In this document: piece by piece, positions 21,832-55,555 of the stretch
How positions within the stretch are numbered: the stretch's first letter is position 1
How the letters are laid out: every line of letters begins with the position of its first letter
DNA from: Tomocerus qinae
Taxonomy: Eukaryota > Arthropoda > Collembola > Entomobryomorpha > Tomoceridae
Assembly (NCBI GenBank): GCA_020055645.1
Contig: CM034549.1
Span: forward strand, 7,564,001-7,628,000
Direction of reading: 5' to 3'
DNA length: 64,000 nt
The notes under the pieces: generated by a model
What the model was told of the DNA's origin: nothing
The model's input: only the letters and a program-made list of their open reading frames with translations
The model's database searches: none
Translations under genes and position numbers: made by a program

Positions 21832-24791
21832 ATGACCTTGTTTCGATTTCTGTCACTCGTTTTATTTAGCCAAATGTGTTATTGTACTGGGACGATTATT
21901 CTAAGGCGATTGTTGTACTCTGATAGTGACAGTCTTAGTATTGAAGTTATATTCTTTTGCAAAACAGATAGCTGCACTAGTAATGGCTGCAATTCTGTAA
22001 AAGATTTTATAAAAGGTTGGATGCATTTATATTAAATTTAAATACTCTGAATCACACTAAACTTGCTTTGCAAGTTTTATTAATTGCATTGGCAAAACAT
22101 TTTTTATTTCCGTAATGTGAATTCCATTTGGTAATTCCAGTTTCCAGAGGCATTTACCAGATATATCTTTACTGTACCATAACGGAGCTATTGGAAAAAA
22201 TTGAACTTGTTAACAAAGATGTGCGGTCATGGCGGAAAGGAAAAACTGTGCTAATATTTTCTGGAAATAGCATCCTTGAATCATTAGATTTAGTCAAATT
22301 GGTAAGTAATCTCTAGATAATCGTCATACTTTATATTATAATGCGGAATTTGACCGAAATATATCTACATTTATAAATTTTTTAGACTATAAATAATTGG
22401 ATATTACATAACTTTATTTAATTATTTAATCTGAAGTCTCCAATGAATTTAATTTTGTAAATTTAAATTCATTTACGGAGATAAATTATACTTTGATGAT
22501 TTAAAATGTAGATAGCACTGGAATATCCTAACGCGTTTATTCGGAACAGCGGTTTATTATTCATCTTTCCAATAAAGAAAGACAATAGTGCTGGCGACGT
22601 TTGCGGTGTAATTGGCAATAATATATTATCTAGTTCAATTAAGAACATCACTCTTGCAAGTGATGTATATTTCGTTTCTGAAGACAACAATAATGAAATC
22701 ATTGATTTCTGGGAAATATATTCAATCAAAGATTTCCCATTTTGCCACAAACTTGAATATCCTACAAATACGAAAGAAAAGGATCTGCTAACAATAATTC
22801 AAGGAAAACTGTTAAGACGGAATAATTTCAAAAGAGTGGAGATCATTGGAGGGGCAGTTGTAAGTATTTTTTCCATTTCAATTTATTAAGGTACATTTAA
22901 TTACCTTTCGGTTTTTTAACATTTAATTTTAATGATATGACAGCAAGATGAAAAATTTGAGTATGCAGCTAAATTCGGGATTGGCAATATTACAACATTT
23001 AATAGCGGTGTAGAAGTCAGTATGTTTCGACTAATACGAGATTACCTTAATTTTTCGTAAGACTTTTGTGATTCGACCTTAAGATGCTTATGAAGGGCTT
23101 ATGAATTTTAACGAAGGACAAATTGTTATGTATTCTACTAACTATTCAGGGAAAAAGCAACTGTGACCGACACGAGCCGAGATGCTGTTATTGCTGGGAA
23201 GGTTGACATCTCTTTAACAGGATCAGTGGGAACTGCTGAGAGAACGAAAAGTGGAACAATTCTCCAGCCAACGCATACCTACTTCGGGTAGTTCTATTTC
23301 ACAATTAAAATAGTTATATCTATGTTCTCACAATGAAAAATTAAGGAGTGGCTTTATGAATGAGTTACTCAAATCATTTATCTTTTTTTCAGAATTAGAG
23401 CGTTCATCACAAAACCCTCTTTCAACACTTTCAGAGATATTTATGCATCTGCATTTCAGTATTCTGTATGGTTAGCTATGTTTTCAACCTGGGTGGCCAT
23501 CGTTGTTGCTCTCAATCTATTCGTTTTAATTAAAAAGAAAATGGAGGACTTGGATGAAAATGATGACGAAATCTTTAGGGATAGTATTTTGATTGCTGTT
23601 GCTTCAGGTACCCAACAGGTCTGGTCCTACCTTTTACGGGGGGAGGGGGTGCTAGGGTGAAAACACATTCCTCTAAGTAATTTTTATCAAAATACCAAAA
23701 ATCTAGTTTTGGTATTTATATTACTATAATAATAATATTAGCCATTTTTCACTACTTTCGACAAAATTGGCCGTAATGTTTTGTGGTTCTTACGAATATT
23801 ATGCAATAAACAAAATTTGACACCCTCCTGATCAATTTCCTGGATGTGTGCCTGCTCTCCAATCACAGACTTATAATTAGGTTCAAAATTATTTAACGAT
23901 TTTTTTATTTTGAAGGGTTGGTTCACTTCCCCCAGCAGTTTTTCTCTCAAACTGGTATCTATTTGTGCGTATATGTCCGGGATAGTGTGTTTTATAGCAT
24001 TCAGTGCAGCCATCGTATCAACTTTATCGGTGAAAAATGCCCCATTCAGTCGTTTGACGATATTTTGAAAGCCAACTACAAATTGTTCATTGAGACCGTT
24101 TTGCAGACCAGTTATGTAGTAAGCAATATTCTTTTCTGTTAATTTTTTTGATATTTTTCTTGCTACAATTTAGGTAACTGTATGTAATAACTGTGTGACT
24201 TTTTGGATTCTCAGCGTTTAGAAGAGAATATTGTAAACAGGACAAAAATAAAGGCTGTTGGTGATATCATTCCGGAAATAGAGCGTGGAGGTAGTGCTAT
24301 GATCTCTTGGCCTGATGTGTTTTACACATTCGTGAGAAAATCAGAGAAATATCAAGACAAGGACGTGTGCAACAAATTTCTAGATTTTTCTCCCTGTGAT
24401 CAAAACTCAATTGCCAAGATCAATGTTCATGAAGTCTAACTCTCCTTTTACAGAGTCCTTCAACTATGTGTACGTCCAACTTTGTTGTTTTTAATTATGT
24501 AACTGTAAATAATAGAGTGATGTAATTATTATATATATTTCTACATTGTATGTATTCAGTATAATCATAATGAAAGAACGGGGACTCAGCTTTCGTCCAA
24601 TTATCAGATACACGAGGGACTTTAAAGTGACCTGCGTTGATCTAAATGTAGTGAATTTTCAGGATTTGAGTCTAAATGATGTTTTTACATCTTTTGCCAT
24701 TTTATTCCTCGGCTATGTCACAAGCATCTTTATCCTACTTCTTGAAATGAAATGCTTTGTCTATAAAATGAAAAATGCCTACCTGGAATGA
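21832..24791 (+). pseudogene. Ionotropic receptor IR-A (IR75-like), complete exon set with two frame-shifting indels
   Basis: Exons 21832-22015 (signal peptide MTLFRFLSLVLFSQMCYC), 22141-22301, 22512-22859, 22944-23056, 23150-23287, 23393-23618, 23916-24118, 24215-24469 and 24560-24791. The layout is that of an ionotropic glutamate-receptor-like chemoreceptor: S1 lobe (exons 3-5), M1 (SVWLAMFSTWVAIVVALNLF), a GTQQ|GWFTSP pore-proximal segment, M3 (AYMSGIVCFIAFSAAIVSTL, replacing the SYTANLAAF motif of iGluRs), S2 (SPFTESFNYV) and M4 (FAILFLGYVTSIFILLLE). Such receptors gate cations in dendrites of chemosensory neurons. Compared with A' on the other strand, exon 7 lacks one C in the run at 24040-24043 and exon 8 has four extra bases near 24383-24394; each shifts frame. 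It is therefore a pseudogene, unless these are assembly errors. The exon 1 donor (GTTGGA) is weak. AATAAA lies at 24836. Confidence 0.82.
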
Positions 24792-24841
24792 AGTAGAACA
24801 ATATTTATATCACTTTTAGCAATAATATTTACAGCAATAAA

Positions 24842-25778
24842 TACATTTATTTGACAATTTTATGTTATTGTTGATCTTATTGCTAAATGATTTTGATGGG
24901 TTCATTTTCTTCAATTCTTTCTGATTGTGTGATTGTCTGTCAATAATTTTTAAACACGGATATAGTTAACGAGTTCATACCGGTAAAAAACAAGGTCAAT
25001 CATTTCACCTTTCATGACCTTCTATATTGTTACAAAAAAAATAACTGCAAAAATTTTACCTAGAAGTATCTAGTACACTGAATAACAAGACACTTTGCTA
25101 CATTCGCTTAAAATACGTACCGATATTGTAAACGAAGCTGTAATGTAAGTTATAATTCAGCAACACCAATATTAAAATATCATAAATATGGCTTATCTTT
25201 ATTTACCTTAGTTTTCATGTACCTACATAGTACGCGGTCTGCTTCACTCGAAAATGACCATTTTGTACTAAAATGTTAACATTTCTGAATTTCCATATAG
25301 TAAATATTATACCGTAATAAATTGTAGGCACGCATAACATGGATGGCATAATCGTGAAATATATAACTTAAATAAATATTTCGAAAGTAAATATTCCTAT
25401 CGATAACAAACAAATATTTCTCATCTCAGCATGCAAGCTTATCCTAACGTTTAAAATTCCACCTGTCTGTCAATTTCGTTTACATTATTTGCAATGTATT
25501 ATTCTCTCCAAGTCTCCACGGATGAGAATAAAATTGCAAGATAACATTCATGAGGGTAAAATAAATATTTCTTTTCCATAAAGCAAAAATAGTATTTTTT
25601 TCAATGATGATGAATGTGTAGATGAAGAATGGGTAACCTAAATCCGAAATGCATGTTTGTTGACTTTGTTCATATTTTGGCTACATGATGGATAGGAAAT
25701 ATACCATTTTACCCACCCACTCTATTAATTGTACACCTCAACCAAGTTCAATCCTATCAATTTTATATTCTAAAAGTA
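24842..25778 (+). other. Spacer between IR-A and IR-B
   Basis: AT-rich, no gene seen. The same spacer is present inverted at about 45990-46960, showing that the two receptor genes were duplicated as one block. Confidence 0.6.
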
Positions 25779-28109
25779 TGAAAATCGACAAATTTTTAAT
25801 AATTTTCATTTCCAATGCTTTCTCTTGCAAAGCTTTTCCTTTAGAAATATTACAATTAGATGAAAGTGCGAAGAACTTCGATCTTGTTTATTGTCCAGTC
25901 AGAAATTCTTACAATATCCATACTCCTTCGCATTTTGGTAAAGAAGAGCATTAATAATTCTCACCCTTTGTTTTGTATTAACGATTTAGTGATATTTGAA
26001 TTGTCCTATTTTATTTTAGTGTCTCATGGATTTTTCCAGGTCATTTATAGCATTGATAACCTTCTCAATAGCTACAATGATATACAGGATGCTAAAACTG
26101 GAAAAACTATCTTACTATTATCTGTAAATAATATTTCGGAAGTTATTATTATTATCCAAAAGGTACGGCTATCTATATTTTTGCATTTCAAGTAAGTATT
26201 TTTAAGTTATTAAAATTTTTTAAATAGATTTCGGAGAAATGTGCTGCATGTGGTCGAAGAAATAGTGGAATTATCATAGCAATTTTCTATCAGCTTAGTG
26301 AAGATATGGATAATATTACTACGAAGAATGATAGTTGCACTTTTCTAAGAAATCATTCTGTTCCATTGGCACATTTAATTGAGAACTTTTCAGTTTCCAG
26401 TGATGTTTATATTGTAGCAAAATACATTTCAAAAGACACAATTCACATTTGGGAGATTTTTTCCATAAAGAATCGATATTTTTGTAACAAAATCGAAAAT
26501 CAACGGAAGCAACTAAAAATTCAATCCTTAGTTGATCAAAAAGTGATGAGAAGAAGAAACTTTAATGGAGCATCAATTATTGCTATTGGAGTGGTATACC
26601 AAAAATGTCACTTATTTTATCTACAGAGGCCCGAAGGGCAGTAAAATTCAGTATTTTTGACATTATTATGATTATTTTTTGGAACATATGATTGCCCATA
26701 TTTTTGGCCTCTGATTATCAGCATTTTGTTATATTTTATTCGGTGTTGTAAATGAAACTACTACTTTCACTGTTACAGAACTACACCGATTATTACGACT
26801 ATGGTTTAAGTTTTGTTGAGAAAACAGTGAAAAATACTTCTACCGTTGAATTTGGCGATGGTTCAGAAGTTAATCTCATCCATTTTAATCGCGATTTCCT
26901 CAATTTCACGTACAACTAGTATAAACTACTAATTTTGTTGATGCATTTTATGGTTTTTAATTGGGGTCTTGTAAACTGGAATATAGTGAGGAGGTCATTG
27001 CGACGTCATCATGGGATGCTTACATTAATTCTATCAATGATAGAAGCGTGGATATTGGAGTATCTGGAATGTTCGTTTCGTCTTTTGTACAAGTTTCTGG
27101 CACATTTCTGCAGCCAACGTATTTTGTCGGGTAATTTTAATAAGCACTCAGTACTTTTTAATATAACAGGCTGACCATCCCTTCCTTTTGAAGGGAACAG
27201 GTTTAAATTTCCTCCAAATAATTTCCCCGCTTCAAAGACTAATTAATTCAATGCATCAATAAATGACATAATGAAACCTGAATCTGAAACGAAATTCAGA
27301 GTAATTATTTTCTTCTGTTGTTTGTATCAAAGATTTTTCACAAAACAGTTTTTTTAGGACAACCTTAAAAAATTATGTGGCATATTTTTTGGCGCAAAAA
27401 ATTATAATATTATATTCTGGTGGTATATTTTAAGCTTATTTTTGACAAATATAGTCTAAAAATTTAAGCGTTTTGCAAGATTATGTTATCTGATTTCTAA
27501 GAGTAATTTTAGCTTATTTTTCTACAAAATATAGTGTAGCCTAAATTTTTCGCGCGACTGGATATTGACCCCAAAATGAAATAGGTAGTTATTCAAGGTG
27601 GGGTTACCCCTTTTTGACTTGGAAAAATCTGGTCAGCCTAATAATATAAGGTTTAATAGGTTCAAATGTGCATAATTTTTAAATGAACTGAGAATGAGAT
27701 GATCTTATTTCAGGTTGAAAGTATATTTTGTACAACCATCTTCGAATTCCATTAGAGATATATATTCCACTCCTTTTTCTCGCCAAATATGGTTTACCAT
27801 ATTAGGAATCTGGGTGGCTGTTTTACTCGTTTTTAAAGGATCTCAAATTTTGAAATCTCGTATGGATGATTTAGAAGAGGAAGATATTTCAGTCACTAGA
27901 GATGCTTTTCTTTGGGCTATCGCTGCGTCTGTCCAACAGGTATATATTGTTTATTCCCTAGAATTTCATTTATATATATTAAATTGATTAACAAAGACCT
28001 TACCTTAAATATATACACTGGGTGAAATATAAGACCAAAAATACCGGAATGGTTCAATATAATTTTAAAAATTTTGAAACCAACAGGGCTGGCATAGTTC
28101 TCCAAGGAG
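25779..28109 (+). pseudogene. Ionotropic receptor IR-B (IR75-like), truncated in the M3 exon
   Basis: Exons 25779-25937, 26040-26162, 26228-26593, 26779-26909, 26987-27130, 27714-27939 and the first 23 bases of the M3 exon, 28087-28109, where a CAGGGCCGG-ended element begins. The exons correspond one-to-one with IR-A: signal peptide (MKIDKFLIIFISNAFSCKAF), an ectodomain with IHIWEIFSIKN (IR-A has IIDFWEIYSIKD), S1 (DRSVDIGVSGMF...GTFLQPTYF), M1 (IWFTILGIWVAVLLVF) and ASVQQ|GWHSSPR. M3, S2 and M4 are missing from this copy. One extra base near 25925-25930, relative to B', puts exon 1 out of frame with exon 2. Non-functional as read; the paralogue B' keeps the 3' exons. Confidence 0.82.
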
Positions 28110-28819
28110 CAGGGCCGGTAAGGTTTTCATGATGCCCGGGCAAATGCTATTTTGATGCCCCCTTTTACTAACTTTAATGTCATTTAGATTTTAAGAACAG
28201 AATTTTTTGCTGCACAAAATTATGTTAAAATAGGGTAGCAATAGAAAGCCAATTTTTAAGGTGACACAATACGTTTATGTTTAGACTGTTTGGGTTGAGA
28301 CTGTTTGGAAACAGTTTGGATTGACACGTAGAGTTGAGACGGTTTTGATTAAAACGGGTTGGATTGAGACGGATTTGATTATAACGGGTTGGATTGAGAC
28401 AGTTTTGATTAAAACGAATCGGATTGAGACAGGTTTGATTTAACACGGTTTGGGTTTTTTAACAAGGTTTGGATGGAAAAGGTTTGAAAGCGGTTTGGGT
28501 TGAGACGGTATTTTTGAGATATTTAGAAGTCGATTTCAGAGGGGGCAATGACTTCATATACTCACATGAATAATATTTTCGCGCGTAGCGCGAAAAATTT
28601 TGGCTTCTTTTTTCTAAAATCAATCAAAAATAGCCTAAAAATCTCCTAAAAATGCGCGAAGCGCGAATTTTTTTGGTATTTTGAGAAAAAATGTTACTTT
28701 TCCAAGGTTGTATTGAGGGGGGCATGCCAGCAAATTATTTTTTTCGGGCATTTTGCTGCCCCCAAGAGCTTGATGCCCGGTGCGGTCGCCCCTGTTGCCC
28801 CCCCAATTCCCCGGCCCTG
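28110..28819. mobile_element. CAGGG-ended hAT-like non-autonomous element, 710 bp
   Basis: Begins CAGGGCCGGTAAGG and ends CCCCGGCCCTG; both ends carry GATGCCCGGG/GATGCCCGGT-type subterminal motifs. The interior holds an imperfect minisatellite (28288-28505) and two CGCG-rich palindromes (TTCGCGCGTAGCGCGAA near 28578). No 8-bp duplication: the left flank is IR-B exon 7, the right flank a 40-bp satellite, so the insertion junction has been rearranged. Confidence 0.7.
28288..28505 (+). repeat. Imperfect minisatellite inside the hAT-like element
   Basis: About a dozen degenerate 18-20-bp units of the form TTGAGACGGATTTGATTAAAACGGG. The period is loose. Confidence 0.75.
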
Positions 28820-29345
28820 TGAATATCTGTTGATTTTCATAGTCAACATTAATCAATTTTGATTTTCTGTAGATTTTAATACTCATAATCAATCAAGATT
28901 GAATATCTGTTGATTTTCATAGTCAACATTAATCAATTTTTATTTTCTGTTGATTTTCATAGTCAACATTAATCAATTTTTATTTTCTGTTGATTTTCAT
29001 AGTCAACATTAATGAATTTTGATTTTCTGTTGAATTTCATAGTCAATATAAATCAATTTTGATTTTCTGTTGATTTTCATAGTCAACATTAATGAATTTT
29101 AATTTTCTGTTGATTTTCATAGTCAACATTATTCAATTTTGATTTTCTGTTGATTTTCATAGTCAATAATTATCAATTGGATTTCCGGTTGATTTTTATA
29201 GTCAACATTAATCAATTTTTATTTTCTGTTGATTTTCATAGTCAACATCAATTTAGATTTTTTGTTGATTTTCATAGTCAATAATTATCAATTTGATTTC
29301 CGGTTGATTTTCATAGTCAACATTAATCAATTTTGATTTTCGGTT
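28820..29345 (+). repeat. 40-bp tandem repeat array 1
   Basis: About a dozen units of period 40 around TGATTTTCATAGTCAACATT followed by AATCAATTTT(G/T)ATTTTCTGT. Units differ by point changes and small indels. A four-unit array of the same family, inverted, is at 55556-55712. Confidence 0.9.
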
Positions 29346-29380
29346 TTCATATATCCTTACAATATCAATTTCTGAATTTT

Positions 29381-29697
29381 TAATATGTCGTAGATATATA
29401 TATAAAGACTCAATTCTGAAAGTTTTGTAAAAATCCGTACTCTAGGTTTTGTGTTACGTGCGAGTACTTTTCGTCGACCAAAATGTGTACACGGTAATCT
29501 TTTAATCAGGCGAGCTTCTGTTACGGCTTGCTGTAGGTTTTAATATGTCGTAAATATATATAAAGACTCAATTCTGAAAGTTTTGTCAAAATCCGTACGC
29601 TCGGTTTTGTGTTACGTGCGAGTACTTTTCGTCTACCAAAATGTGTACACGATAACCTACACTCAGGCGAGCTTCTGTTATGGCTTGCTGTAGGTTT
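29381..29697 (+). repeat. 160-bp tandem direct duplication
   Basis: 29381-29540 and 29541-29697 are near-identical (TAATATGTCGTA(G/A)ATATATA .. GCTTGCTGTAGGTTT). Copies differ at scattered positions, including the C/T change that creates the ATG at 29680 in copy 2. Confidence 0.9.
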
Positions 29698-30083
29698 TTT
29701 TTACATTCTAGGACCTGTTGCAGTCAATCAGCTCAGAAAAAGAAGCAGGATTTGGAAATTAAAGAGAAAATCCTGACTACAATTGAGCGCAATGAGTTCA
29801 AGCAGGAGGTGCTTGAAGTTAAAATGGAGTTGCTTGATGAAAGAAAGCCAACGGACGGCAAAAAGTTAATTGCATTGAAACTGGGTAACTATATTAATAT
29901 TTAAGATCCATAAACCTTTACATTTATGTTCAAATATATGTATCAAATATATGAATTTATACCCTAATGTTCACTGCAGATTTAATCAAAATTCGGGCTG
30001 AAAATCAAAAATTGAAGGCAACTAATGCAGAGATGCAGAAAATGAAGAAAGATAAGCACTGCTGCAAACACAAAATAGTTTAA
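29680..30083 (+). CDS. Small lysine-rich coiled-coil protein, probably the 3' exons of a gene
   Basis: Exon 29680-29884 joins exon 29980-30083 (AACTGG|GTAACT to CTGCAG|AT, phase 1). The joined frame runs QKKKQDLEIKEKILTTIE ... KLDLIKIRAENQKLKATNAE and stops after HCCKHKIV. Heptad-like hydrophobic spacing and many K/E residues suggest a coiled coil. The ATG at 29680 lies in the second 160-bp repeat. An alternative is that TTTTTTTTACATTCTAG is an acceptor for an exon starting near 29713, making this the 3' end of a longer gene whose 5' part is lost or unseen. I do not recognise the family. Confidence 0.4.
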
Positions 30084-30595
30084 CACGAAGAAAATCTTAG
30101 ATATCATGTCTGTCCTTGACTTTACTCGTTTTGTACCAATGAAAACTATTTCGAAACTTAATTGCTGACTTTACGTTAGAGTTCTGAATATTATGCTTTT
30201 TATATGTATAACAACGAGTACATAATGCTTTTCTGGTAAAAATGAATATGAAATGTATATTTTCATTGCAAGGAAATTCTTAAGAAATATTGAGGATGAA
30301 AACTAATGTGTATCGTACATAACTGAAATATGTATTATCTATAACAATGTTGCATGTCTTAAAAGAACTTTATTGTTTGAATATTTTACTTTCGAAATTA
30401 TACCCGTACTATTTAACGTGTGACTTCGCCACGTATCTGTGCGAACTTGCTAAATATGAGTTATTTTCTGTTATGAACTACCATTGGCATATTATGAAAT
30501 GAAAATTTTTATTACTACATAGATCGGTCAATATTATTATAGAAATATAATATATGTTTATAATTACTCCAGAAGTAGACTTGAGCATTGCAGTG
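30084..30595. other. Unassigned AT-rich stretch
   Basis: Nothing recognised. Confidence 0.3.
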
Positions 30596-31273
30596 TCTAT
30601 GGATGGATTTCCTCTTGCATATAATGAGTATTGTGATTTGAAATTATTTGAATAGCTGGCCAATTTAATCATTTGGCATTCTACATACCGATCCCCATTG
30701 CAGGTTCCATTAAAAATAGAGATAAGAGGATTCCACCTGATCACAACCCTGGCCAGGGCTGCCCAACAGCATAGTGTTTTACTCTTCGACTGTGATGGAG
30801 TAATGAATGGTATTTAGAAATGAGAAATGAATTAATTGGCCAGCTATTCAAATAATTTCAAATCACAATACTCATTATGCAAGAGGAGGCACCGGAGCAT
30901 TTCAGACTTGATGTTAGAGAATGGTTTGATACCCACTTCTCTGACAGATACAGAAGGATTGCTAGGTGAGGACCGGTTTCATGCCCACCAAGATAACCGG
31001 ACACCATGTGATTTCGGTCTTTGAGGAATCGTCGAGGATAATTGCAACGACGCGAATGCATCGTTACGGAAATGGGAAATAATTCAGGAATATTATAAAA
31101 AAACAGGTCGGTCAGTGTTGAAGCGATTACGCCGGTGCCTGGAGATGGAGGGTCTTCAAACTAAAAAACGCATGCTCTTTCACATGGTGTGCATATCATT
31201 GTAATACACCTCCGATCGTCAGTTATAAAGGTCAAAGTTCATGTATGCATCATTTTGGGACACCCTGTACATT
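30596..31273 (+). pseudogene. Tc1/mariner (IS630-type) transposase remnant
   Basis: In one frame from about 30882 the sequence reads EEAPEHFRLDVREWFDTHFSDR and, past stop codons, GPVSCPPR.PD. This matches the 'hf.l.vr.wld..FpdRWIGRrGPi.WPpRSPDLTPlDFfLWG' block of IS630/Tc1/mariner-type transposases in arthropods, here with at least three in-frame stops. Further on, RRCLEMEG resembles the end of the same protein, and GGGACACCCTGTAC at 31258-31272 looks like its terminal repeat. At the left, 30596-30668 is repeated inverted at 30833-30892, so part of the element was rearranged or folded back. Clearly dead. Confidence 0.6.
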
Positions 31274-31830
31274 GTACAATTTACGTATACAATTGTACAA
31301 TATCGTATGCGAGTTTTTCAACATTCCATGTTTTTCTCCATCAAGGGATGTTAAACCCAATGGGAAATATCTTCCCTATACTCAATTTTAGCGGTGCCCG
31401 ATATGTCCAGAATATTATGTATATTTTCCGTGTTTTACATTTATAAGTAATATTTTAAATGCTGGTTTCAATTTAAGTAATAGTAACCCTGCTTCTTCTT
31501 TTCCTTCGACCCCTGGCCCTGAGTTTGGGATATAGTAAAAGGTGACCTCCAGTCAGGTCTAGGTTAGGTAATTAAAACATTGGTGCAATGTGATATTATT
31601 ATGTTTTCATCGGAAAGGTGAATGAATCATTTTCTGATTTCCGGGTAGCATTTCTCTGTGTCAATAACGACTGCACTTGGCAAAGTTCGCATTGGTGCAA
31701 TGCAAATACAATAAAATAAGTAGTAGGAGATAACGGAAACGTGGAACAAGGTTTAACTAAATATCGAGTGTGCAGTTTAGAGACTCTGAGAAAACTTGCA
31801 TTTTAAACGTAAACAAAAAACTTAATTAAA
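31274..31830. other. Unassigned stretch
   Basis: Nothing recognised. Confidence 0.3.
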
Positions 31831-32168
31831 ATGGAAAGCGTTACTAGATCTTGTCTATTTTGTGCCATTGAAATTGTCAAGAGCAGTATTTTCGGGAATC
31901 ACAACAAACTCACGAAAAACGAAAGTGTGGCCTTATGCAGAGCTCTTCGTTTGAAGAAAGCTACATTCTATACTCAATTTTTCACGAATCTTTATTTTGT
32001 GAAGAATGTAAAATATTTATTGAAAGATCTAGCGCCCAATTTATGCCAGCAGTAGAGAACAAGATATCTATAGGGTCCTGAGTTCTGAAGGAAATGCTGA
32101 AAATGATCAAGAGTCTGTTCCTGTGTTGGATGAAAACACAACTAACTCAAGAAAAATATTATTTAAAG
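31831..32168 (+). pseudogene. First-exon remnant of a ZAD-like zinc-finger gene
   Basis: Starts MESVTRSCLFCAIEIVKSSIF, continues NESVALCRALRL and, in another frame, HESLFCEECKIFIERSS. CxxC ... CxxC spacing with a short helical segment between the pairs is the ZAD (zinc-finger-associated domain) pattern found at the N-terminus of many arthropod C2H2 transcription factors. A further frame change leads to SEGNAENDQESVPVLDEN and a good donor (TTTAAAG|GTAAAA) at 32168. Two frameshifts within one exon and no C2H2 fingers downstream make this a pseudogene or dead duplicate. Confidence 0.5.
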
Positions 32169-33006
32169 GTAAAAAATGATAATTTCTGGCCTTTTATAGA
32201 AAATGCAAACAAAAATTTATTTATTTATTGCAAATAAGCAAGTAAGCATCATAGAGTTGAGTACAGTGTATTCAGTTTGCGATTATACTAAAAGTGTTAG
32301 TCTTTATTTTTCTATCACTGTAGTTCAAAGTTCAGTATTAAGGTGCACAACTATACAAACTGAACCAAAGCAATCCAAAATTATATAGATTCGCAAATCA
32401 CAATAAATAAAATTACTTCCAACTATGTTTCAACTATGTATGTATGTCTCTATGTAACTGTATTTTATGCCATGGACTTTGCGGCTTTTTGTTGCAATGT
32501 GCAAGAGCGAAGCGAGTACGCATAACAATAAGTCCATCACGGGTTAACAGTAAACACTTAATACGTTACTGTATTTCGAAATTAACTAATACACATGATT
32601 ATGCTGGATGCCTACCTTTCGAAATGTCACGCATGCTGGGTGCTACTACCTGTATATTATAATCGATCGTAGACTTGATAAAGCAATAAATTTACCTCTG
32701 ACCAAGGTGAGTGAAATTGTCATGGTAATAGGCTTCTGAATAAAGGTGAGGAAAATTTGAAATCCTGTGAAATAGGCCACGGGAACGGGGTCTTATGGGG
32801 CACGGGAACAGGAGAGGAATGAGGGGATGAGTGCCGGAGATATAAGCAAAATAAATGGGATTAAAACGCTTTAAACTTAGATCTGTAGAGTTTTGCACTG
32901 AGGAGGTGTGTAACTGAAATCATTGTGATCCAATTGTTCGACTATTTCTAACTAATAGCTAGCATAATCCCATGTTTAAGCTAAACTCATGACAGTTTCA
33001 ACGATA
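32169..33006. other. Unassigned stretch
   Basis: No gene seen. A GC-richer patch near 32780-32830 has no recognisable content. Confidence 0.3.
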
Positions 33007-33255
33007 ATGGGAAGGAGGTGTGCAGTGCAGGGTTGTAGTAATTCCGGAGCTCTCAAGATACTATTCACTTGATCCCGAAAGAGGACAAAAAGGTGGAAAC
33101 ACGAAAATCATAGATTGAATTCATTTCAGTTGATCAACCTAGCAGAAATTTAATTAACTATGGCATATGTAGTTTGCATTTCAGACATTGATTACAAACA
33201 GACCGGGAATAAAAAGAAGCTACACCAGTTTGTAGTTCCTACAATAAAGAGATAT
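33007..33255 (+). pseudogene. THAP-domain remnant
   Basis: Opens MGRRCAVQGCSNSGA and, in a shifted frame, reads IHLIPKEDKKVETRKS, VDQPSRNLINYGICSLHF and then KQTGNKKKLHQFVVPTIK. This is the C2CH zinc-binding order of a THAP domain (C..C ... C..H with a 'CSlHF' end). At least two frame changes and in-frame stops break it. THAP domains occur in P-type transposases and in host regulators; which this was cannot be told. Confidence 0.65.
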
Positions 33256-34830: not shown

Positions 34831-34960
34831 GTAGGTAATACAGTATTGTTCTAATAGTTCTAGTCATCTCTCATAATTTCCGAGCCGCGAAAACTAAACC
34901 TAAATTGAGAATTAGATGCACCACACTTAGTAGAACTGGATAAGCCTTCGTTCCCGTAGC

Positions 34961-36625: not shown

Positions 36626-36770
36626 AAAAGAAAAATAACGTTGAATATGATAGTCAAAAGACGTCCTGTTGTGTCATAGCTACGCGTATGTCCCACACTT
36701 AAAATAAATATATTTCCCTTGGGAATGATTTATGAAAATCATATAAAATTTTGCCATGGAATTCTGTGCT

Positions 36771-40894: not shown

Positions 40895-40994
40895 TTAATT
40901 AAATGGATTGAATATTTGTTTTGTGTTATTACGTGATATTGACCAATGTCAATGAATAAGATGTATACATTTAAAACAACTGGCAATAAATATA

Positions 40995-42805: not shown

Positions 42806-45800
42806 TTATTTTTTTCCATAAAAGCAAATGTTTTCAATGAAGAAAAGTGATAAACATAAAATGTATCCAATTCCCATGATGCCAAATCCAGTGGCAGCTT
42901 CGCTTAAGCTTAATGAATGGTCATAGTGTTTAACAGCCATTTCTAAACAGCTGGCGGAAACATTTTGATCGTAATGCTTCATGAAACGATAGTTAAGTCC
43001 CCTTTCTTTCATTGCTATAATTCTGTGATATTATTAAATAATATTTTAATTATTCTTACGACACTTTTCCATTACTAAATAAATAAATAATAAAATAAAA
43101 TGTCTAATAATGAATAAAATAGCATATTATATATTTTTCTGAATAGGACTAACGCATAATTAAAAGACTCGAGGAGAGAAGATTTTTGTTGCATGCACAT
43201 CGCACTGTACAAATAGGTTCGGGTAACTGCGAGGAAGAAAATTTTTGACAGACATCAGTACTCTGGTAATTTGCTGCTTGTCTGGTGTAGGAATAAAAAC
43301 TTTCTGGCCACGTAATAAGTGCAGAGCTTCCTTCTTCAACTTCTGGTAAAGCGTCATCAATATCCTTATTTGTGGCTGTTCTTAGAAAAGGTTCATCTGG
43401 AATCTTTTAAAATTAAGATTTTTATTACCATCAAAAGCGAATAATCACAAAATACCTTTAGACAAGGACAAACTTATTACAGTATGGTCCTCATCCCCAG
43501 AACCTATCCCAACATCATCTTCAATATAAAGTTTGAAATTGTATTTTTAGTAAATCATCCAAACTTTTCATTGGAACGAAACTTATCGAGAGTTGGGATA
43601 CTATTGCTGAACCATAGGCGATGAAACAGACTGATCCCATTAAGTACCCACTCAAGAAAATCAATTTTAAAGAGTAACTCCTTGGAGAACTATGCCAGCC
43701 CTGTTGGTTTCAAAATTTTTAAAATTATATTAGACCATTTCTCTATTATTTTAGTTTTTAAAGTCACATACTTAATTTCGGAAGCGGGAATATACAATAT
43801 ACCTGTTGGACAGACGCAGCGATAGCCCAAAGAAAAGCATCTCTAGTGACTGAAATATCTTCCTCTTCTAAATCATCCATACGAGATTTCAAAATTTGAG
43901 ATCCTTTAAAAACGAGTAAAACAGCCACCCAGATTCCTAATATGGTAAACCATATTTGGCGAGAAAAAGGAGAGTGGAATATATATCTCTAATGGAATTC
44001 GAAGATGGTTGTACAAAATATACTTTCAACCTGAAATAAGATCATCTCATTCTCAGTTCATTTAAAAATTATGCACATTTGAACCTATTAAACCTTATAT
44101 TATTAGGCTGACCAGATTTTTCCAATGCAAAGAGGGGTCACCCCACCTTGAATAACTATCTATTTCATTTTGGGGTCAACATCCCCAGACCGCATACAGT
44201 CGCGCGAAAAATTTAGGCTACACTATATTTTGTAGAAAAATAAGCTAAAATTACTCTTAGAAATCAGATAACATAATCTTGCAAAACGCTTAAATTTTTA
44301 GACTATATTTGTCAAAAATAAGCTTAAAATATACCACCAGAATATAATATTATAATTTTTTGCGCCAAAAAATATGCCACATAATTTTTAAGGTTGTCCT
44401 AAAAAAACTGTTTTATGAAAAATCTTTGATACAAACAACAGAAGAAAATAATTAATTACTCTGAATTTCGTTTCAGATTCAGGTTTCATTATGTCATTTA
44501 TTGATGCATTGAATTAATTAGTCTTTGAAGCGGGGAAATTATTTGGAGGACGTTTAACCTGTCCCCTTCAAAAGGAAGGGATGGTCAGCCTGTTATATTA
44601 AAAAGTACTGAGTGCTAATTAAAATTACCCGACAAAATACGTTGGCTGCAGAAATGTGCCAGAAACTTGTACAAAAGACGAAACGAACATTCCAGATACT
44701 CCAATATCCACGCTTCTATCATTAATAGAATTAATGTAAGCATCCCATGATGACGTCGCAATGACCTCCTCACTATATTCCAGTTTACAAGACCCCAATT
44801 AAAAACCATAAAATGCATCAACAATATTAGTAGTTTATACTAGTTGTACGTGAAATTGAGGAAATCGCGAGTAAAATGGATGAGATTAACTTCTGAACCA
44901 TCGCCAAATTCAACGATAGAAGTATTTTTCAGTGTTTTCTCAACAAAACTTAAACCATAGTCGTAATAATCGGTGTAGTTCTGTAACAGTGAAAGTAGTA
45001 GTTTCATTTACAACACCGAATAAAATATAATAAAATGCTGATAATCATAGGCCAAAAATATGGGCAATCATATGTTCCAAAAAATAATCATAATAATGTC
45101 AAAAATACTGAATTAAACTGCCCTTCGGGCCTCTGTAGATAAAATAAATGACATTTTTGGTATACCACTCCAATGGCAATAATTGATGCTCCATTAAAGT
45201 TTCGTCTTCTCATCACTTTTTGATCAACTAAGGATTGAATTTTTAGTTGCTTCCGTTGATTTTCGATTTTGTTACAAAAATATCGATTCTTTATGGAAAA
45301 AATCTCCCAAATGTGAATTGTGTCTTTTGGAATGTATTTTGCTACAATATAAACATCACTGGAAACTGAAAAGTTCTCAATTAAATCTGCCAATGGAACA
45401 GAATGATTTCTTAGAAAAGTGCAACTATCATTCTTCGTAGTAATATTATCCATATCTTCACTAAGCTGATAGAAAATTGCTATGATAATTCCACTATTTC
45501 TTCGACCACATGCAGCACATTTCTCCGAAATCTATTTAAAAAATTTTAATAACTTAAAAATACTTACTTGAAATGCAAAAATATAGATAGCCGTACCTTT
45601 TGGATAATAATAACAACTTCCGAAATATTATTTACAGATAATAGTAAAAGAGTTTTTCCAGTTTTAGCATCTTGTATATTATTGTAGCTATTGAGAAGGT
45701 TATCAATGCTATAAATGACCTGGAAAAATCCATGAGACACTAAAATAAAATAGGACAATTCAAATATCACTAAATCGTTAATGAAAAACAAAGGGTGAGA

Positions 45801-45985
45801 ATTATTAGTGCTATATTCTTCTTTACCAAAATGCGGGGAGTATGGATATTGTAAGCATTTCTGACTGGACAGTAAACAAGATCGAAGTTCTTGGCACTTT
45901 CGTCTAATTGTAATATTTCTAAAGGAAAAGCTTTGCAAGAGAAAGCATTGGAAATGAAAATTATTAAAAATTTGTCGATTTTCAT
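42806..45985 (-). pseudogene. Ionotropic receptor IR-B' (inverted paralogue of IR-B), full exon set with frame-shifting indels
   Basis: Exons 45827-45985, 45597-45719, 45166-45531, 44850-44980, 44629-44772, 43803-44030, 43456-43700, 43154-43403 and 42806-43022. It carries what IR-B has lost: M3 (SGYLMGSVCFIAYGSAIVSQ), S2 (ALITWPESFYSYTRQ..., MQQKSSLLESFNYA) and M4 (GFGIMGIGYILCLSLFFIE). Exon 1 joins exon 2 in frame here, unlike IR-B. Two extra bases near 43969-43975 (exon 6), one lost base near 43540-43549 (exon 7) and a frame change near 43205-43230 (exon 8) break the frame as read. Two are in short repeats, so sequencing or assembly error is possible. In exon 3 only two of the 112 residues I compared differ from IR-B (AHL/ADL, ISK/IPK). 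Confidence 0.8.
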
Positions 45986-48543
45986 AATTTTAGAATATAA
46001 AATTGGTAAGGATTGAACTTGGTTGAGGTGTACAATTAATAGAGTGGGTGGGTAAAATGGTATATTTCCTATCCATCATGTAGCCAAAATATGAACAAAG
46101 TCAACAAACATGCATTTCGGATTTAGGTTACTTATTCTTCATCTCGCATCCATCATCATTGAAAAAAATACAATTTTTGCTTTGTGGAAAGGAAATATTT
46201 ATTTTACCCTCATGAATGTTATCTTACAATTTTAGTCTCGTCTGTGGAGACTTGGAGAGAATAACATTGCAAATAATGTAAACGGAATTGACAGACAGGT
46301 GGAATTTTAAACAGTTAGAATAAGCTTGCATGCTGAGATGAGAAATATTTGTTTGTTATCAATAGGAATATTTACTTTTGAAATATTTATTTAAGTTATG
46401 TATTTCACGATTGTGCCATGCATGTTATGCGTGCCTACAATTTATTACGGTATAATATTTACTGTATGGAAATTCAGAAATGTTAACATTCTAGTACAAA
46501 ATGGTCATTTTCGAGTGAAGCAAACCGCGTACTATGTATGTGCATAAAAACTAAGGTAAATAAAGATAACGCCTTATGATATTTTAATATATGTGTTGCT
46601 GAACTATAACATACATCTACTACACTTACATTACAGCTTCGTTTACAATATCGATACGTATTTTAAGCGAATGTAGCAAAGTGTCTTGTTATTCAGTGTA
46701 CTAGATACTTCTAGGAAAAATTTTTGCAGTTATTTATTTTGTAACAATGTAGAAGGTCATGAAAGGTGAAAGGATTGACCTTGTTTTTTACCGGTATGAA
46801 CTCGTTAACTATATCCGCGTTTAAAAATTATTGACAGAAAATCACACAATCAGAAAGAATTGAAGAAAATGAACCCATCAAAATCATTTAGCAATAAGAC
46901 CAACAATAACATAAAATTGACAAATATATGTATTTATTGCTGTAAATATTATTGCTGAAAGTGATATAAATATTGTTCTACTTCATTCCAGGTATGCATT
47001 TTTCATTTTGTAGACAAAGCATTTCATTTCAAGAAGTAGAATAAAGATGCTTGTGACATAGCCGAGGAATAAAATGGCAAAAGATGTAAAAACATCCTTT
47101 AGACTCAAATCATGATAATTCACTACATCTAGATCAACGCAGGTGACTTTGAAGTCCCTCGTGTATCTGATAATTGGACGAAAGCTGAGTCCCCGTTCTT
47201 TCATTATGATTATACTGAATACATACAATATAGAAATATATATAATAATTACACCACTCTATTATTTACAGTTACATAATTAAAAACAACAAAGTTGGAC
47301 GTACACATAGTTGAAGGACTCTGTAAAAGGAGAGTTAGACTTCATGAACATTGATCTTGGCAATTGAGTTTTGATCACAGGGAAATCTAGAAATTTGTTG
47401 CACACGTCCTTGTCTTGGTATTTCTCTGATTTTCTCACGAATGTGTAAAACACATCAGGCCAAGAGATCATAGCACTACCTCCACGCTCTATTTCCGGAA
47501 TGATATCAACAACAGCCTTTATTTTTGTCCTGTTTACAATATTTTCTTCTAAACGCTGAGAATCCAAAAAGTCACACAGTAATTACATACAGTTACCTAA
47601 ATTGTAGCAAAAAAAATATCAAAAAAATTAAAAGAAAAGAATATTGCTTACTACATAACTGGTCTGCAAAACGGTCTCAATGAACAATTTGTAATTGGCT
47701 TTCAAAATATCGTCAAACGACTGAATGGGGGCATTTTTCACCGATAAAGTTGATACGATGGCTGCACTGAATGCTATAAAACACACTATCCCCGACATAT
47801 ACGCACAAATAGATACCAGTTTGAGAGAAAAACTGCTGGGGGAAGTGAACCAACCCTTCAAAATAAAAAAAATCAATAAATAATTTTGAACCTAATTATA
47901 AGTCTATGATTGGAGCGCAAGCACACCAGGAAATTGATCAGGAGGGTGTCAAATTTTGTTTAGTGCATAATATTTGTAAGAACCACAAAACATTATGGCC
48001 AATTTTGTCGAAATGAGTGAAAAATGGCTATATTATTATTATAGTGATATAAATACCAAAACTAGATTTTTGGTATTTTGATAAAATTACTTATAGGAAT
48101 GCCTAATGTGTTTTCACCCTAGCTCCCCCTCCCCCCGTAAAAGGTAGGACATTGCTGTCTTAAACGAGATAGGGCAATATGTGTCATATATAAATAGAGC
48201 CCTCTCTACTGGAAGTTAAAGTTTTTAAATGATGAGACAGACCTGTTGGGTACCTGAAGCAACAGCAATCAAAATACTATCCCTAAAGATTTCGTCATCA
48301 TTTTCATCCAAGTCCTCCATTTTCTTTTTAATTAAAACGAATAGATTGAGAGCAACAACGATGGCCACCCAGGTTGAAAACATAGCTAACCATACAGAAT
48401 AGTGAAATGCAGATGCATAAATATCTCTGAAAGTGTTGAAAGAGGGTTTTGTGATGAACGCTCTAATTCTGAAAAAAATGATAAATGATTTGAGTGACAC
48501 ATTCATAAAGCCACTCCTTAATTTTCCATTGTTAGAGCATTGG

Positions 48544-49651
48544 TGTTCGGGCGGGTTTTTAATGTTATATGGGAAAATGTTGATTTGTAGTGTAGTTTAA
48601 GTTATTGACACGCAAACCGCCACTCTTATGTCTAATTGTTGTGTGTTGTATTCTCTTATATGTAAACTGACTAACTTTACTTGTAAAATGTGCTAATTTG
48701 TTTAGGCGACTATTAATAACATGTAAGGCGACAACATTATTCGATATCGTATGACCTATTCTATTATTTAACGTAATGTATAAGCTTAACTAATATGTGT
48801 TATTCTATGTTCAAACCGTATAATGTTTAATGTGAAATCTTGTATTCTCTCATAAATGTGGAGACCATCACATAAATGTGGAGACCATCACTTGAGTGTG
48901 GAGACCATCATATGAGTGTGGAGACCATCATATGAGTGTGGAGACCATCTCATACATAGAGTACGATACAATGAACTCTATCCATGTAATGTAATGTATT
49001 TTATGATGTGTTTCATATTCGTGTACTTTCGTGTCCAGACATTATGTTAATTAATGTAAGAAAATCACTATCTTAATCCCCAATGTCAGGATTTGTACAC
49101 TTTTATTGTATGTATTTGACCTCTTTGTGTTATATGGACTTACTTGTATTAGTTAAGATGTTATATATTGACTCGTGTATACTAATCTCTTACCGAACTT
49201 TCTAGAACTTAATTTTGTATTCATGGCGTCCCTAATTACGCATTCATGTAGCTTTCTGTTGTATCCTTCCAATGTGTTTCAATTGTCTATATATAGGACC
49301 CATGTCAATGTAATTCAATGCGATTTCTTTGAGTCTTGTGTGAGCATTCGGTCAGACTAGTCAGGAACTCTTGTCGTCTTTTACTTGAAATTAAACTATC
49401 CTGACTAGAACTTTCTTGTTTCCGTTTGTTGATTATTTCATTTACTTGTCGTTTTTGATTCTCATTACTCGTTTTACTTAGAGTCAATTGCATTCTATTT
49501 GTAGTCAGTATTTGAGTTCATAGCTTCATTTATCTCACTCAAGCTCATTTCGCCATAACTTACAACATCATTTAATTCAACATTTTGAATCTCATCTAAT
49601 AATTATTAGACCACTAATCCTTTTTCCAATTCTTTGCTACAGCCCAAAACA
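48544..49651 (+). repeat. Left LTR of the Bel/Pao element
   Basis: Starts TGTTCGGGCGGG, ends CAGCCCAAAACA. Contains a five-unit 20-bp tandem repeat (GTGGAGACCATCAxATxAxT, about 48859-48955). I saw no difference from the right LTR. Confidence 0.93.
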
Positions 49652-52613
49652 TTGGTCCTTCGAGCCGGATACTCGGGTTACTTGAGTTATTGTGACCCTG
49701 GTTCCAAAAACTATCGGGAAACTGTTCGAGCGTTGGAAAAGGATTTGGATTATCAGCTTCGTTTCACTGCATCTTATTGAAGATGGATACTCTACTCAAC
49801 AGACGGACAAACCTGAAGGGAAGAATTACATCAATTCAGAAGGTAATTGAAGGCCATACGACTAGAGCTCTGACGGCCTACGAAACCAAGGCTTGCATGG
49901 ATCAAGTGAATAAACTGATGGAACAGAATGATTCTCTGCACGATGAAATTACTTTCATCCTTCCGCCTACTGATGACGTTGCTCCTCATGAAGACGTTCG
50001 TCGAGCCCAAGAGCTGAGACTGATAGGATTAGTAAGTCTACTCAACGAAATCATCAACCCATACTTATCACTCGGAAGCTCATCATCAACAGGAAGCCGT
50101 GCACAGGGAGAGTCTTCAACCACTTCATCTGGTCCTCAGGATACTAAGGTTCGTCTACCTCAATTAAACTTGCCTACCTTTAATGGAAGTCGTCACGATT
50201 GGACTTCGTTTCATGATTTGTTCAAAGCTGCAATTCACAGTAATGACAAACTGAGCGATGCCCAAAAACTTCAATATTTGAAATTATCTTTGACTGGAGA
50301 GCCATCACTTCTTCTCAAGTCATTTCCGATTACTGATACTAATTACACCGAAGCGTGGAAAACTCTCACGAGCAGGTATGAAAACACGCGTGAAATTATT
50401 AGAGCAAATTTTGAGCGATTACTTAGCCAAGGCCACGTCCAGGCCGAAAACCCTACTACTCTGCAGAACTTACTGGATACAACGCAGGAGTGTTCGAGGG
50501 CAATCAGCAACGCTGGAGCTGATGATAAGCAAGCATACGATTTACTGGTGATGCAATTTCTTCTTGGAAAACTGGACAGCGAATCTCGTCTTCAGTGGGA
50601 ACTCACGGTCGACCCTGATACTCTACCTACGATGGAAGGCTTCATAAAGACCTTAGGTACTCGGGCACGAGCTAATGTCGCAGCCAAAGTCCCAGAAGCC
50701 GGAAAACCGAGGATTGAAGGGAAGAAGAAAGATACTGTGGTGAACCATGGAGCAGCTGCGTCCAACTTCAATGACTTTAAGTCACCTTGTTCTGCTTGCG
50801 GAGGAAGTCACTATCTGTTCAGGTGCTCAAGCTTCAGATCGATGTCCGTCGACCAGCGTTGGGACCATGTCCGAAGTAACCCCTGCTGTCATTTTTGTTT
50901 GAAGAAAGATTGCCGGAGTGATTCTTGTCTCTTTGGAGGATGTAGAAGCTGCAAGGAGAACCATAATATTTTACTCCATAAGGAAACACCGAATTCGGAT
51001 CCAGTCTCAGAGCCTGTTCCAGAACCAACTCCGTCTAGTTCGTCGGTAGTTGCTCAACCTGGCAGGGTAGGTCTCTTTTCGTCTATCTTTTCTAATACTC
51101 AAGTTCTATTGTCTACAGCCTTGATTCGAGTGCAAGACAGAAGCGGATGTTTTCAACTCTTCAGAGCACTATTGGACAACGGATCACAGGCTAGCTTCAT
51201 CACTTCCAGCTGCGCCACCAAACTTGGTCTATGTCGTTAGAAGGTGAACGTTCCACTTACTGGATTGGCAACTGTCAGCGCTGGGGCGTCTCAAGAAGCA
51301 GCTGAGGTGACTTTTACTTCATGTCATGGATTTGAACCTTTGTTTCGTGTACAAGCCCTCATCCTCAAGCAAATCACCCGTGATCTCCCAACTGCACCAC
51401 TAGTTCTAGAGGATTGGCCTCATTTGCGTGAGTTGCAGCTTGCGGATCCGCGGTACTACGAGGAAGGCAGCATTGATATTCTCTTGGGAGGCGACATCTT
51501 CTATAGTCTCCTTACGACTGGAATTCGTCCAGGCCCACCTGGGGCACCTTTGGCAGTCAACACTGTGCTTGGCTGGATCGTTGGTGGTAAGGTTGGTAAT
51601 ACCAATACCAATACTTCATCAATTTCTACTTTTTATGTTCAGTGCGATGTGAGCGATCAACTTCGAAAATCTTGGGAACTTGAAGAATTCTCCGATACGA
51701 AGCTGCAACCTCCCGCAAGCGTGGTATGTGCAAACCACTTTGTATCAACTCTTTCACAAGTTGAGGACGGGCGATTCGTCGTTCGTCTGCCCTTTAAGTC
51801 CAGCGTCGGTACACTTGGAGCATCTCGTGACTCTGCCGTATGTTGCTTGGAGGCTGTGAACAGAAGACATTCGGCAATTCCTCTTGAGCAGGAGAAGCAT
51901 AACGAAGTCTTTGAGAAATATTTTGATCTTAACCGAATGGAACTGGTCCCTGAGTGTGTCATGGGTAAGGTAAATTACTTTAAGCCTCATCATGCTGTTT
52001 TTCAGGACTCCAGTACCACGACCAACGTTCCGGTCGTTTTCGATGCATCAACTTCTACTTCGTCTGATGTATCACAACATGATATATTGATGGAGGGACC
52101 GAAATTTCAGGATGATCTGGTTTCAGTTTTTACTCGGTTCCTAAAACGTAAGGCGTGGAGGAAAGACTCAACTGAACCCTTAAGAGTTTGCCGTATGTTA
52201 GCGGCGACATGTGGGACTTCTACATCTTCCTTCATTGCTAAATTCTGTGGCTTTGAGAAATTGTCGAGGATTGCTGTTTGCTTATCGCGGAGTCATCAAT
52301 GTGTTGCCAGCAGTCAACTGAAGTCCTTATCTCCAATCTTGGACTACGAACTTGGGTTGCTTCGGGTTGGCGGCCGCCTTCTGAAAATTGCCATTTACCT
52401 GGATGCCAAACATCAAATTCTTTTGCCAAGGACAAGCAGAGTGACTGGGATGGTCGTTTTGTGGCTACTCATACCGGAAAAGACGGATTGACGAGAGTAG
52501 GAACCATCAAGACGTCAACTGGAAAACTTCAACGTCCGATTACCAAAGTATGTATTTTACCAATTGTTTAAGATATAAATGTGTTGAAATTTGATATTTC
52601 AAGGCGGGCTGTA

Positions 52614-53721
52614 TGTTCGGGCGGGTTTTTAATGTTATATGGGAAAATGTTGATTTGTAGTGTAGTTTAAGTTATTGACACGCAAACCGCCACTCTTATG
52701 TCTAATTGTTGTGTGTTGTATTCTCTTATATGTAAACTGACTAACTTTACTTGTAAAATGTGCTAATTTGTTTAGGCGACTATTAATAACATGTAAGGCG
52801 ACAACATTATTCGATATCGTATGACCTATTCTATTATTTAACGTAATGTATAAGCTTAACTAATATGTGTTATTCTATGTTCAAACCGTATAATGTTTAA
52901 TGTGAAATCTTGTATTCTCTCATAAATGTGGAGACCATCACATAAATGTGGAGACCATCACTTGAGTGTGGAGACCATCATATGAGTGTGGAGACCATCA
53001 TATGAGTGTGGAGACCATCTCATACATAGAGTACGATACAATGAACTCTATCCATGTAATGTAATGTATTTTATGATGTGTTTCATATTCGTGTACTTTC
53101 GTGTCCAGACATTATGTTAATTAATGTAAGAAAATCACTATCTTAATCCCCAATGTCAGGATTTGTACACTTTTATTGTATGTATTTGACCTCTTTGTGT
53201 TATATGGACTTACTTGTATTAGTTAAGATGTTATATATTGACTCGTGTATACTAATCTCTTACCGAACTTTCTAGAACTTAATTTTGTATTCATGGCGTC
53301 CCTAATTACGCATTCATGTAGCTTTCTGTTGTATCCTTCCAATGTGTTTCAATTGTCTATATATAGGACCCATGTCAATGTAATTCAATGCGATTTCTTT
53401 GAGTCTTGTGTGAGCATTCGGTCAGACTAGTCAGGAACTCTTGTCGTCTTTTACTTGAAATTAAACTATCCTGACTAGAACTTTCTTGTTTCCGTTTGTT
53501 GATTATTTCATTTACTTGTCGTTTTTGATTCTCATTACTCGTTTTACTTAGAGTCAATTGCATTCTATTTGTAGTCAGTATTTGAGTTCATAGCTTCATT
53601 TATCTCACTCAAGCTCATTTCGCCATAACTTACAACATCATTTAATTCAACATTTTGAATCTCATCTAATAATTATTAGACCACTAATCCTTTTTCCAAT
53701 TCTTTGCTACAGCCCAAAACA
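52614..53721 (+). repeat. Right LTR of the Bel/Pao element
   Basis: Same 1108-bp sequence as the left LTR, including the five-unit 20-bp tandem repeat (about 52929-53025). Followed at once by the ATTGG target duplication and IR-A' intron sequence. Confidence 0.93.
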
Positions 53722-54675
53722 ATTGGTATTACTATTTTAATTGTGAAATAGAACTACCCGAAGTATGTATGTGTTGGCTGCAAAATTGTTCCACTTTTCA
53801 TTCTCTCAGCTGTTCCTACTGATCCTGTTAAAGAGATATCAACCTTTCCAGCAATAACGGCATCCCGGCTCGTATCGGTCACAGTTGCTTTCTCCCTGAA
53901 TAGTTAATAGAATACATAGCAATTTGCCTTTCGATAAAATTCATAAGCCCTTCATAAGAATCTAAGGTCGATCACAAAAGTCTTACGAAAAGTTAAGGTA
54001 ATCTCGTATTAGTCGAAACATACTGACTTCTACACCGCTATTAAATGTTGTAATGTTACCAATCCCGAATTTAGCTGCATACTCAAATTTTTCATCTTGC
54101 TGTCAAATCATCAAAATTAAATGTTAAAAAACCGAAAGGTAATTAAATGTACCTTAATAAATTGAAATTAGGAAATAAATTGAAATGGAAAAAATACTTA
54201 CAACTGCACCTCCAATGATCTCTACTCTTTTGAAATCATTCCGTCTTAACAGTTTTCCTTGGATTATTGTTAGCAGATCCTTTTCTTTCGTATTTGTAGG
54301 ATATTCAAGTTTGTGGCAAAATGGAAAATCTTTGATTGAATATATTTCCCAGAAATCAATGATTTCATTATTGTTGTCTTCAGAAACGAAATATACATCA
54401 CTTGCAAGAGTGATGTTCTTAATTGAACTAGATAATATATTATTGTTAATTACACCGCAAACATCGCCAGCACTATTGTCTTTCTTTATTGGAAAGATGA
54501 ATAATAAACCGCTGTTCCGAATAAACGCGTTAGGATATTCCAGTGCTATCTACATTTTAAATCATCAAAATATAATTAATTTATCTCCGTAAATGAATTT
54601 AAATTTACAAAATACATTGGAGACTTCAGATGAAAAATAATTAAATTAAGTTATGTAATTTCCAATTTATAGTTG

Positions 54676-55542: not shown

Positions 55543-55555
55543 CTCCCCGTATAAA

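Follow-up and report, generated by a model that had tools for sequence, protein, structure and literature searches.

A receptor-like gene pair is present twice in inverted orientation

We examined a stretch of 64,000 nucleotides (nt) from the collembolan Tomocerus qinae (GenBank assembly GCA_020055645.1, contig CM034549.1, positions 7,564,001 to 7,628,000 of the forward strand), which we call the window and within which all positions below are counted, and found in it a genuine inverted repeat whose two arms carry the same block of two genes, each copy of which is damaged. The genes of arm 1 are called IR-A and IR-B (A and B below), after the ionotropic receptors (IRs) that they appear to resemble, and their counterparts in arm 2 are A' and B'. 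The explanation that we prefer, and that we judge reasonably probable, is that the pair was duplicated in inverted orientation, stayed under selection for a long time and was broken late and piecemeal.

Comparison of the window with itself by blastn, with which an independent repeat finding agreed, returned one long inverted pair in three pieces of 92-98% identity, far above chance (E values from 0 to 4e-145): 22386-23318 against 54673-53727 (92.5%), 23322-23623 against 48540-48238 (97.7%) and 23624-28109 against 48150-43678 (94.6%), the second member lying on the minus strand each time. By self-alignment, arm 1 occupies 22386-28109 on the plus strand and arm 2 occupies 43678-54673 on the minus strand, where it is split by a long terminal repeat (LTR) element at 48544-53721. 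The initial annotation had described these arms as an inverted duplication of a two-gene block, about 15.6 kb apart and with equal exon lengths and phases, and the alignment and the matching exons bore this out: the spacer between the arms (28110-43677) measures 15.6 kb, and exon lengths and phases agree everywhere except at lesions. When the two arms were aligned as it had proposed, with the LTR element set aside, they differed at 165 of 5581 aligned sites (3.0%; 196 of 5646 when the unalignable intron stretch 27946-28055, omitted from the first count, is included) and by 29 insertions or deletions (indels), the LTR element not counted. Because its long inverted arms of high identity contain a pair of multi-exon genes with their intervening DNA, rather than one mobile element, the locus qualifies as an inverted segmental duplication. 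The range first given for it, 22386-54675, fits both arms; exons 1 and 2 of A, at 21832-22301, fall outside.

Each copy of the two genes carries its own damage

A and B are nine-exon genes. On the plus strand A begins with two exons that are found with arm 1 only, exon 1 (21832-22015), which has a signal-peptide-like start by eye and is the sole strong tblastn place for this exon in the window, and exon 2 (22141-22301; exon model and tblastn). These are followed by exons 3 (22512-22859), 4 (22944-23056), 5 (23150-23287), which is the exon most divergent between the arms (11 synonymous and 2 nonsynonymous changes), and 6 (23393-23618), with a first membrane helix by eye. Exon 7 (23916-24121), which by homology holds the pore and second helix, is shifted by 1 nt, exon 8 (24215-24469) is shifted by a 4-nt indel relative to A', and exon 9 (24560-24791) includes the stop codon; exons 1-6 and 9 are open. 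The start of exon 8 is uncertain by 7 nt, as two candidate acceptors 7 bases apart give a different phase to the join between exons 7 and 8. On the minus strand of arm 2, A' is open throughout exons 3 (54202-54549), 4 (53987-54099), 5 (53758-53895), 6 (48243-48468), 7 (47649-47855, again pore and second helix by homology), 8 (47305-47555) and 9 (46983-47214, with the stop), and the LTR element sits in its intron 5. The A' side of arm 2 ends within sequence equal to intron 2 of A, and tblastn found no second copy of exons 1 and 2; here and below, missing gene ends are absences within the 64-kb window. The pore exon of A was at one stage thought absent from both arms, an idea that was dropped when tblastn found it in each, with an open frame in A' and a shifted one in A.

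B is open, on the plus strand, in exons 1 (25778-25937), 2-5 (26020-26162, 26228-26593, 26779-26909 and 26987-27130) and 6 (27714-27939), and is cut after the first 23 nt of exon 7 (28087-28109). B', on the minus strand, has a 1-nt frameshift close to the end of exon 1 (45828-45985), exons 2-5 that are open each in its own phase (45740-45597, 45531-45166, 44980-44850 and 44772-44629) and a 2-nt frameshift in exon 6 (43803-44030), both frameshifts being measured against B. Its exon 7 (43481-43700), of which arm 1 holds a copy of the start only, appears to change frame within the exon, and exon 8 (43154-43396), which has no copy in arm 1, appears to change frame relative to exon 8 of A' despite one frame that is open throughout; both of these were judged by reading frames. 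Exon 9 (42806-43022), likewise without a copy in arm 1, is open and includes the stop.

The initial annotation had called the damage to the two arms complementary. For A this holds: the gene is frame-shifted in exons 7 and 8 where A' is open, and A', as had also been noted, lacks its 5' exons and carries the LTR insertion. For B it fails. B has indeed lost its 3' exons by a cut inside exon 7, and B', which was supposed to have kept them, has frame changes in exons 7 and 8, so that B is whole in neither arm and these two exons are intact nowhere.

Every lesion inside an exon is an indel, some of them in short runs, and no stop codon was made by substitution in genes that otherwise look constrained. 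This is what would be seen if the frameshifts were uncorrected sequencing indels in an assembly that had combined haplotypes, mis-joined a repeat or misoriented the spacer; an assembler given reads shorter than the 5.7-kb arms could be led astray by them, and the spacer is partly non-unique, 34957-36492 being copied at 62470-64000. We nevertheless consider such an artefact unlikely. The flanks of the two arms do not match each other in the self-comparison of the window, and neither the end losses nor an element at 28110-28819 (described below) are explicable as indel errors. Moreover, three mobile-element frames of 3300, 1542 and 1248 bp are free of indels (with the indel rate of the exons P = 0.01, or 0.09 if the first frame is taken by itself). 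The last two are one frame split by a TAG, and the control is biased by the choice of these frames for their openness.

Substitutions suggest that A was probably broken late, after long selection

We compared 884 codons of the exons shared by the arms, after dropping five (four touched by indels and the stop codon of A), and counted 36 synonymous and 21 nonsynonymous changes, a ratio of nonsynonymous to synonymous rates (dN/dS) of 0.15 (interval 0.09-0.27). For A alone the counts were 28 and 11 (dN/dS 0.10, interval 0.05-0.21; 0.06-0.31 with exon 5 left out), and for B they were 8 and 10 (dN/dS 0.33, interval 0.13-0.86). Neutrality of both copies was rejected (p = 9e-12; 7e-9 after a rough correction for transitions), as was a model in which one copy was neutral and the other evolved at 0.1 (p = 3e-6 for all shared exons, 8e-7 for A alone and 6e-4 for A without exon 5). 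The shared exons make up 2683 of the 5581 sites yet only 4 of the 29 indels fall in them (Fisher p = 1e-4; 2 of the 25 non-exon indels fall in the stretch excluded from the site count). In the shared exons substitution had created no stop codon, against about 3.6 predicted from the rate outside exons (P(0) = 0.03), the stop fraction being taken from exons 3-6 and 9 of A and exons 1-6 of B. Because dN/dS is low in A and no stops were made by substitution, the A copies appear to have been long in use: both were probably under selection through most of the divergence of the arms and then broken late. None of the four indels in the shared exons is common to both arms, which supports the earlier proposal of pseudogenisation after the duplication; in A at least, the arms seem to have parted long before the damage arose.

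Divergence between the arms is mosaic

Differences between the arms are distributed unevenly. Counted per 100 sites they were over-dispersed, with a variance-to-mean ratio of 2.1 that none of 5000 permutations reached (their mean was 0.95), and the clustering held outside exons too (p = 0.008). There, divergence steps from 5.0% to 1.8% near position 25633, and the non-exon differences number 86 in 1771 sites of the A half and 22 in 1127 sites of the B half. The most divergent tract, at 23065-23366 on the plus strand, has 32 differences in 300 aligned sites, a count that none of 3000 permutations reached; at the other extreme, 27619-27918 has none in 300 sites (p = 0.017), and the emptiest stretch of 200 sites was not unusual (p = 0.31).

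Gene conversion between the arms, which the initial annotation had raised as a possibility beside hairpin formation, could give patchy divergence of this kind and, as a possibility, gains support from it. A mosaic would result from exchange between arms, or if a third copy had donated sequence to the divergent tract; a tblastn search of the window for a third A-like donor showed no IR-like place beyond the four gene copies. PMC4122928 records conversion among Drosophila chemosensory genes, in eight orthologous groups, with a possible effect on two IR trees. We also considered that the LTR insertion had shielded the tract 23065-23366 from exchange and dropped this idea, because the insertion, with LTRs identical over 1108 bp, is far younger than a tract with 32 differences in 300 sites; the idea would reopen if the LTRs had been made alike by exchange and the element only looked young.

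The arm ends and the mobile elements beside them

One base past the cut in exon 7 of B (28109/28110), and so flush with it, begins a 710-bp element on the plus strand (28110-28819) with 9-bp inverted ends (CAGGGCCGG/CCGGCCCTG). It is without a target-site duplication, the flanking eight bases differing where an 8-bp duplication was looked for; a deletion at its right end would also have erased such a duplication. From the resemblance of its ends we take it to be presumably hAT-like and file it as transposon-like, and a transposon-linked loss of the 3' end of B is plausible. Inspection by eye showed no comparable element where arm 2 ends on its outer side (54673). Adjoining the element is an array of repeats of about 40 bp (28820-29345, plus strand), 168 nt of which recur exactly at 55550-55717, past the outer end of arm 2, so that the arrays at 28820-29345 and 55550-55744 face opposite ways, the first lying between the arms and the second beyond them.

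The element in intron 5 of A' (48544-53721, given on the plus strand, its long frames antisense to A') has LTRs of 1108 bp that begin TGTTCG and end AAAACA, with ATTGG on both sides, that is, TG-CA ends and a target-site duplication. Because these LTRs are identical, the element is much younger than the divergence of the arms. Its inner part is only about 3 kb and contains two long frames, which are one reading frame split by a TAG; the first matches DUF1759 (E = 4e-32), neither matches a reverse transcriptase family and the second matches no Pfam family at all. We take DUF1759 to be a marker of BEL/Pao elements, and this one is accordingly listed as BEL/Pao-like.

Weighing the history of the locus

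In the history that we prefer, a tandem A-B pair of ionotropic-receptor-type genes would have been duplicated in inverted orientation, and both A copies, with B perhaps for part of the time, would have been kept by purifying selection over the time in which about 3% divergence built up between the arms. Local exchange by gene conversion may then have made the divergence patchy. Frame-shifting indels would have come late, in exons 7 and 8 of A and in exons 1, 6, 7 and 8 of B'; the 3' end of B would have been lost at the breakpoint flush with the short transposon-like element, the 5' end of A' would also have been lost, and a young LTR element would have entered an intron of A'. We infer that the original copies were complete and that the lesions are biological.

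Several points weigh against this history. The evidence is one assembled sequence, and the exon models were built on A-B homology and splice-site rules; the join of exons 7 and 8 is uncertain in both A and B'. The dN/dS values come from a simple count method, exon 5 contributes 11 of the 28 synonymous changes in A, and the clustering of differences may stem in part from unequal constraint or mutation rate. For B alone, a model with one neutral copy was not rejected (p = 0.20) and full neutrality was rejected weakly (p = 0.02; 0.07 after the rough transition correction); the substitutions in B do not decide its timing. Lastly, complete pairs that were both in use would require two separate losses of gene ends, one per arm.

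The weak result for B, together with the lack of a whole A or B in either block today, is what might be expected of old pseudogenes that have decayed freely, with both copies dead since the duplication. The substitution counts for A and for the pooled exons reject this and exon indels are few, and we regard such an origin as extremely improbable.

The arm ends fit two histories, paired end losses or a doubly truncated copy combined with a turn of the spacer, and we prefer the first. In the second, a complete A-B pair would have been accompanied by a copy truncated at 22386 and 28109, and recombination between the arms would have inverted the 15.6-kb spacer. One duplication and one inversion would cover both missing ends with fewer events; within the window, the 5' exons of A are present only with arm 1 and the 3' exons of B only with arm 2; and the unturned order puts both 40-bp arrays in one orientation, an agreement with a half chance of arising anyway. 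There is a precedent in the Anopheles inversion 2Rj, described as having long inverted repeats at its breakpoints (PMC1952172). We think this history rather unlikely, as a copy truncated at birth is expected to be neutral and the counts for A reject one neutral copy.

A related reading is that the pair is of a flip type, in which the other orientation of the spacer persists in the population and A is kept by selection though both copies are broken here. Judged from the exon phases, recombination inside exons 3-6 of A would bring the first six A exons of arm 1 together with exons 7-9 of arm 2, which are open, and the flip would give a whole open A frame provided that exons 7 and 8 join as modelled. 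This would fit the lower dN/dS of A (0.10, versus 0.33 for B), and we consider it very unlikely. Should the orientation prove polymorphic, the locus would be a natural case of an inversion making or breaking a receptor gene; otherwise it is an ordinary example.

A and B appear to resemble ionotropic glutamate receptors

The protein of A and that of exons 1-6 of B are 32% identical over their aligned part, and the two genes have exon phases in common for exons 1-6 and 9. In the Pfam search, exons 3-9 of A' matched Lig_chan with an E value of 8e-7 and 29.4 bits, just below the curated cut-off of 30.8, and exons 1-6 of B matched SBP_bac_3 only (E = 0.14); none of the models specific to IRs was matched by A' or by exons 1-6 of B, and an NCBIfam search with A' returned 0 families. 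Glutamate receptor 2 in PDB was matched with E = 0.062 by A' alone and with 0.006 by a profile of A and B, with the QQG of A' aligned to the QQG of that receptor, and exons 1-6 of B had no PDB match in a single-sequence search. The last residues of exon 6 are QQ and the first of exon 7 are GW, and hydrophobic stretches were seen by eye in exons 6, 7 and 9. These comparisons give us fair confidence, at the level of the superfamily, that A and B encode proteins like the ionotropic glutamate receptors and IRs. Both may perhaps belong to the IR75 group, whose motifs they resemble. According to PMC2924276, the antennal IRs of Drosophila melanogaster have 4-15 introns, and the many introns of A and B would suit antennal rather than divergent IRs of that species.

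Relation to known systems

The ligand-gated channel match of A', just short of its cut-off, the QQG at the pore and the nine exons shared by A and B liken these genes to the many-intron antennal IRs of insects, and the locus as a whole is of a known kind, ordinary gene duplication and decay. The Ir75a of D. sechellia has reportedly been termed a pseudo-pseudogene. It is one gene, whereas the locus here consists of two blocks with indels and lost ends. PMC2924276 describes it as damaged, within an IR group that is for the most part conserved, and damage is what likens it to A and B. The same source speaks of close IR75 in-paralogues in some species, with pseudogenes among them. The Anopheles inversion 2Rj likewise has long inverted arms, of 5.3 kb with a 4-kb spacer according to PMC1952172. 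The arms here differ in carrying receptor genes, in having diverged by 3% and in being known from one orientation only. In alternative transposition, breakpoints lie flush with the ends of the elements, and the breakpoint flush with a short inverted-end element resembles that seen with Ac/Ds, except that here the element is single, of a putative superfamily and known from sequence alone. The hAT elements Ac/Ds are reported to give rise to both deletions and inversions (PMC8225341).

Chemoreceptor genes are in turnover, duplicating and dying, and freshly broken pairs help to time their death; with the same two genes present twice and bearing different lesions, shared history can be separated from later damage. 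Among the literature matches listed (titles and abstract openings) there was no report on this locus, which weighs little.

Other features of the window

A second inverted pair, 34957-36492 and 62470-64000, is 98.6% identical over 1536 columns; it touches the end of the window and may be longer. It was considered as part of a bigger inverted block and rejected, its positions being off the symmetry of the arms. One frame of 35000-36492, read through stops, matched no Pfam family, and 36306-36629 is a palindrome (91%). Elsewhere in the spacer, 36989-39852 contains four open frames (299, 130, 132 and 144 aa) with no Pfam family above the cut-off.

Outside the arms, 7-3306 is an open frame of 1100 aa of the long interspersed nuclear element (LINE) type that matches an endonuclease (E = 2e-7) and a reverse transcriptase (E = 7e-35). 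The minus strand of 18129-19064 has pieces of a cytochrome P450 (E = 4e-21 and 2e-12), and a u-PAR/Ly-6-like domain of the Quiver family lies at 9405-9746 (E = 3e-8). Two tandem arrays were also observed, a perfect one with a 20-bp unit at 4470-4650 and a large one at 56814-62056, in which 300-nt blocks are identical in five copies spaced by 917, 917, 1058 and 1133 nt.

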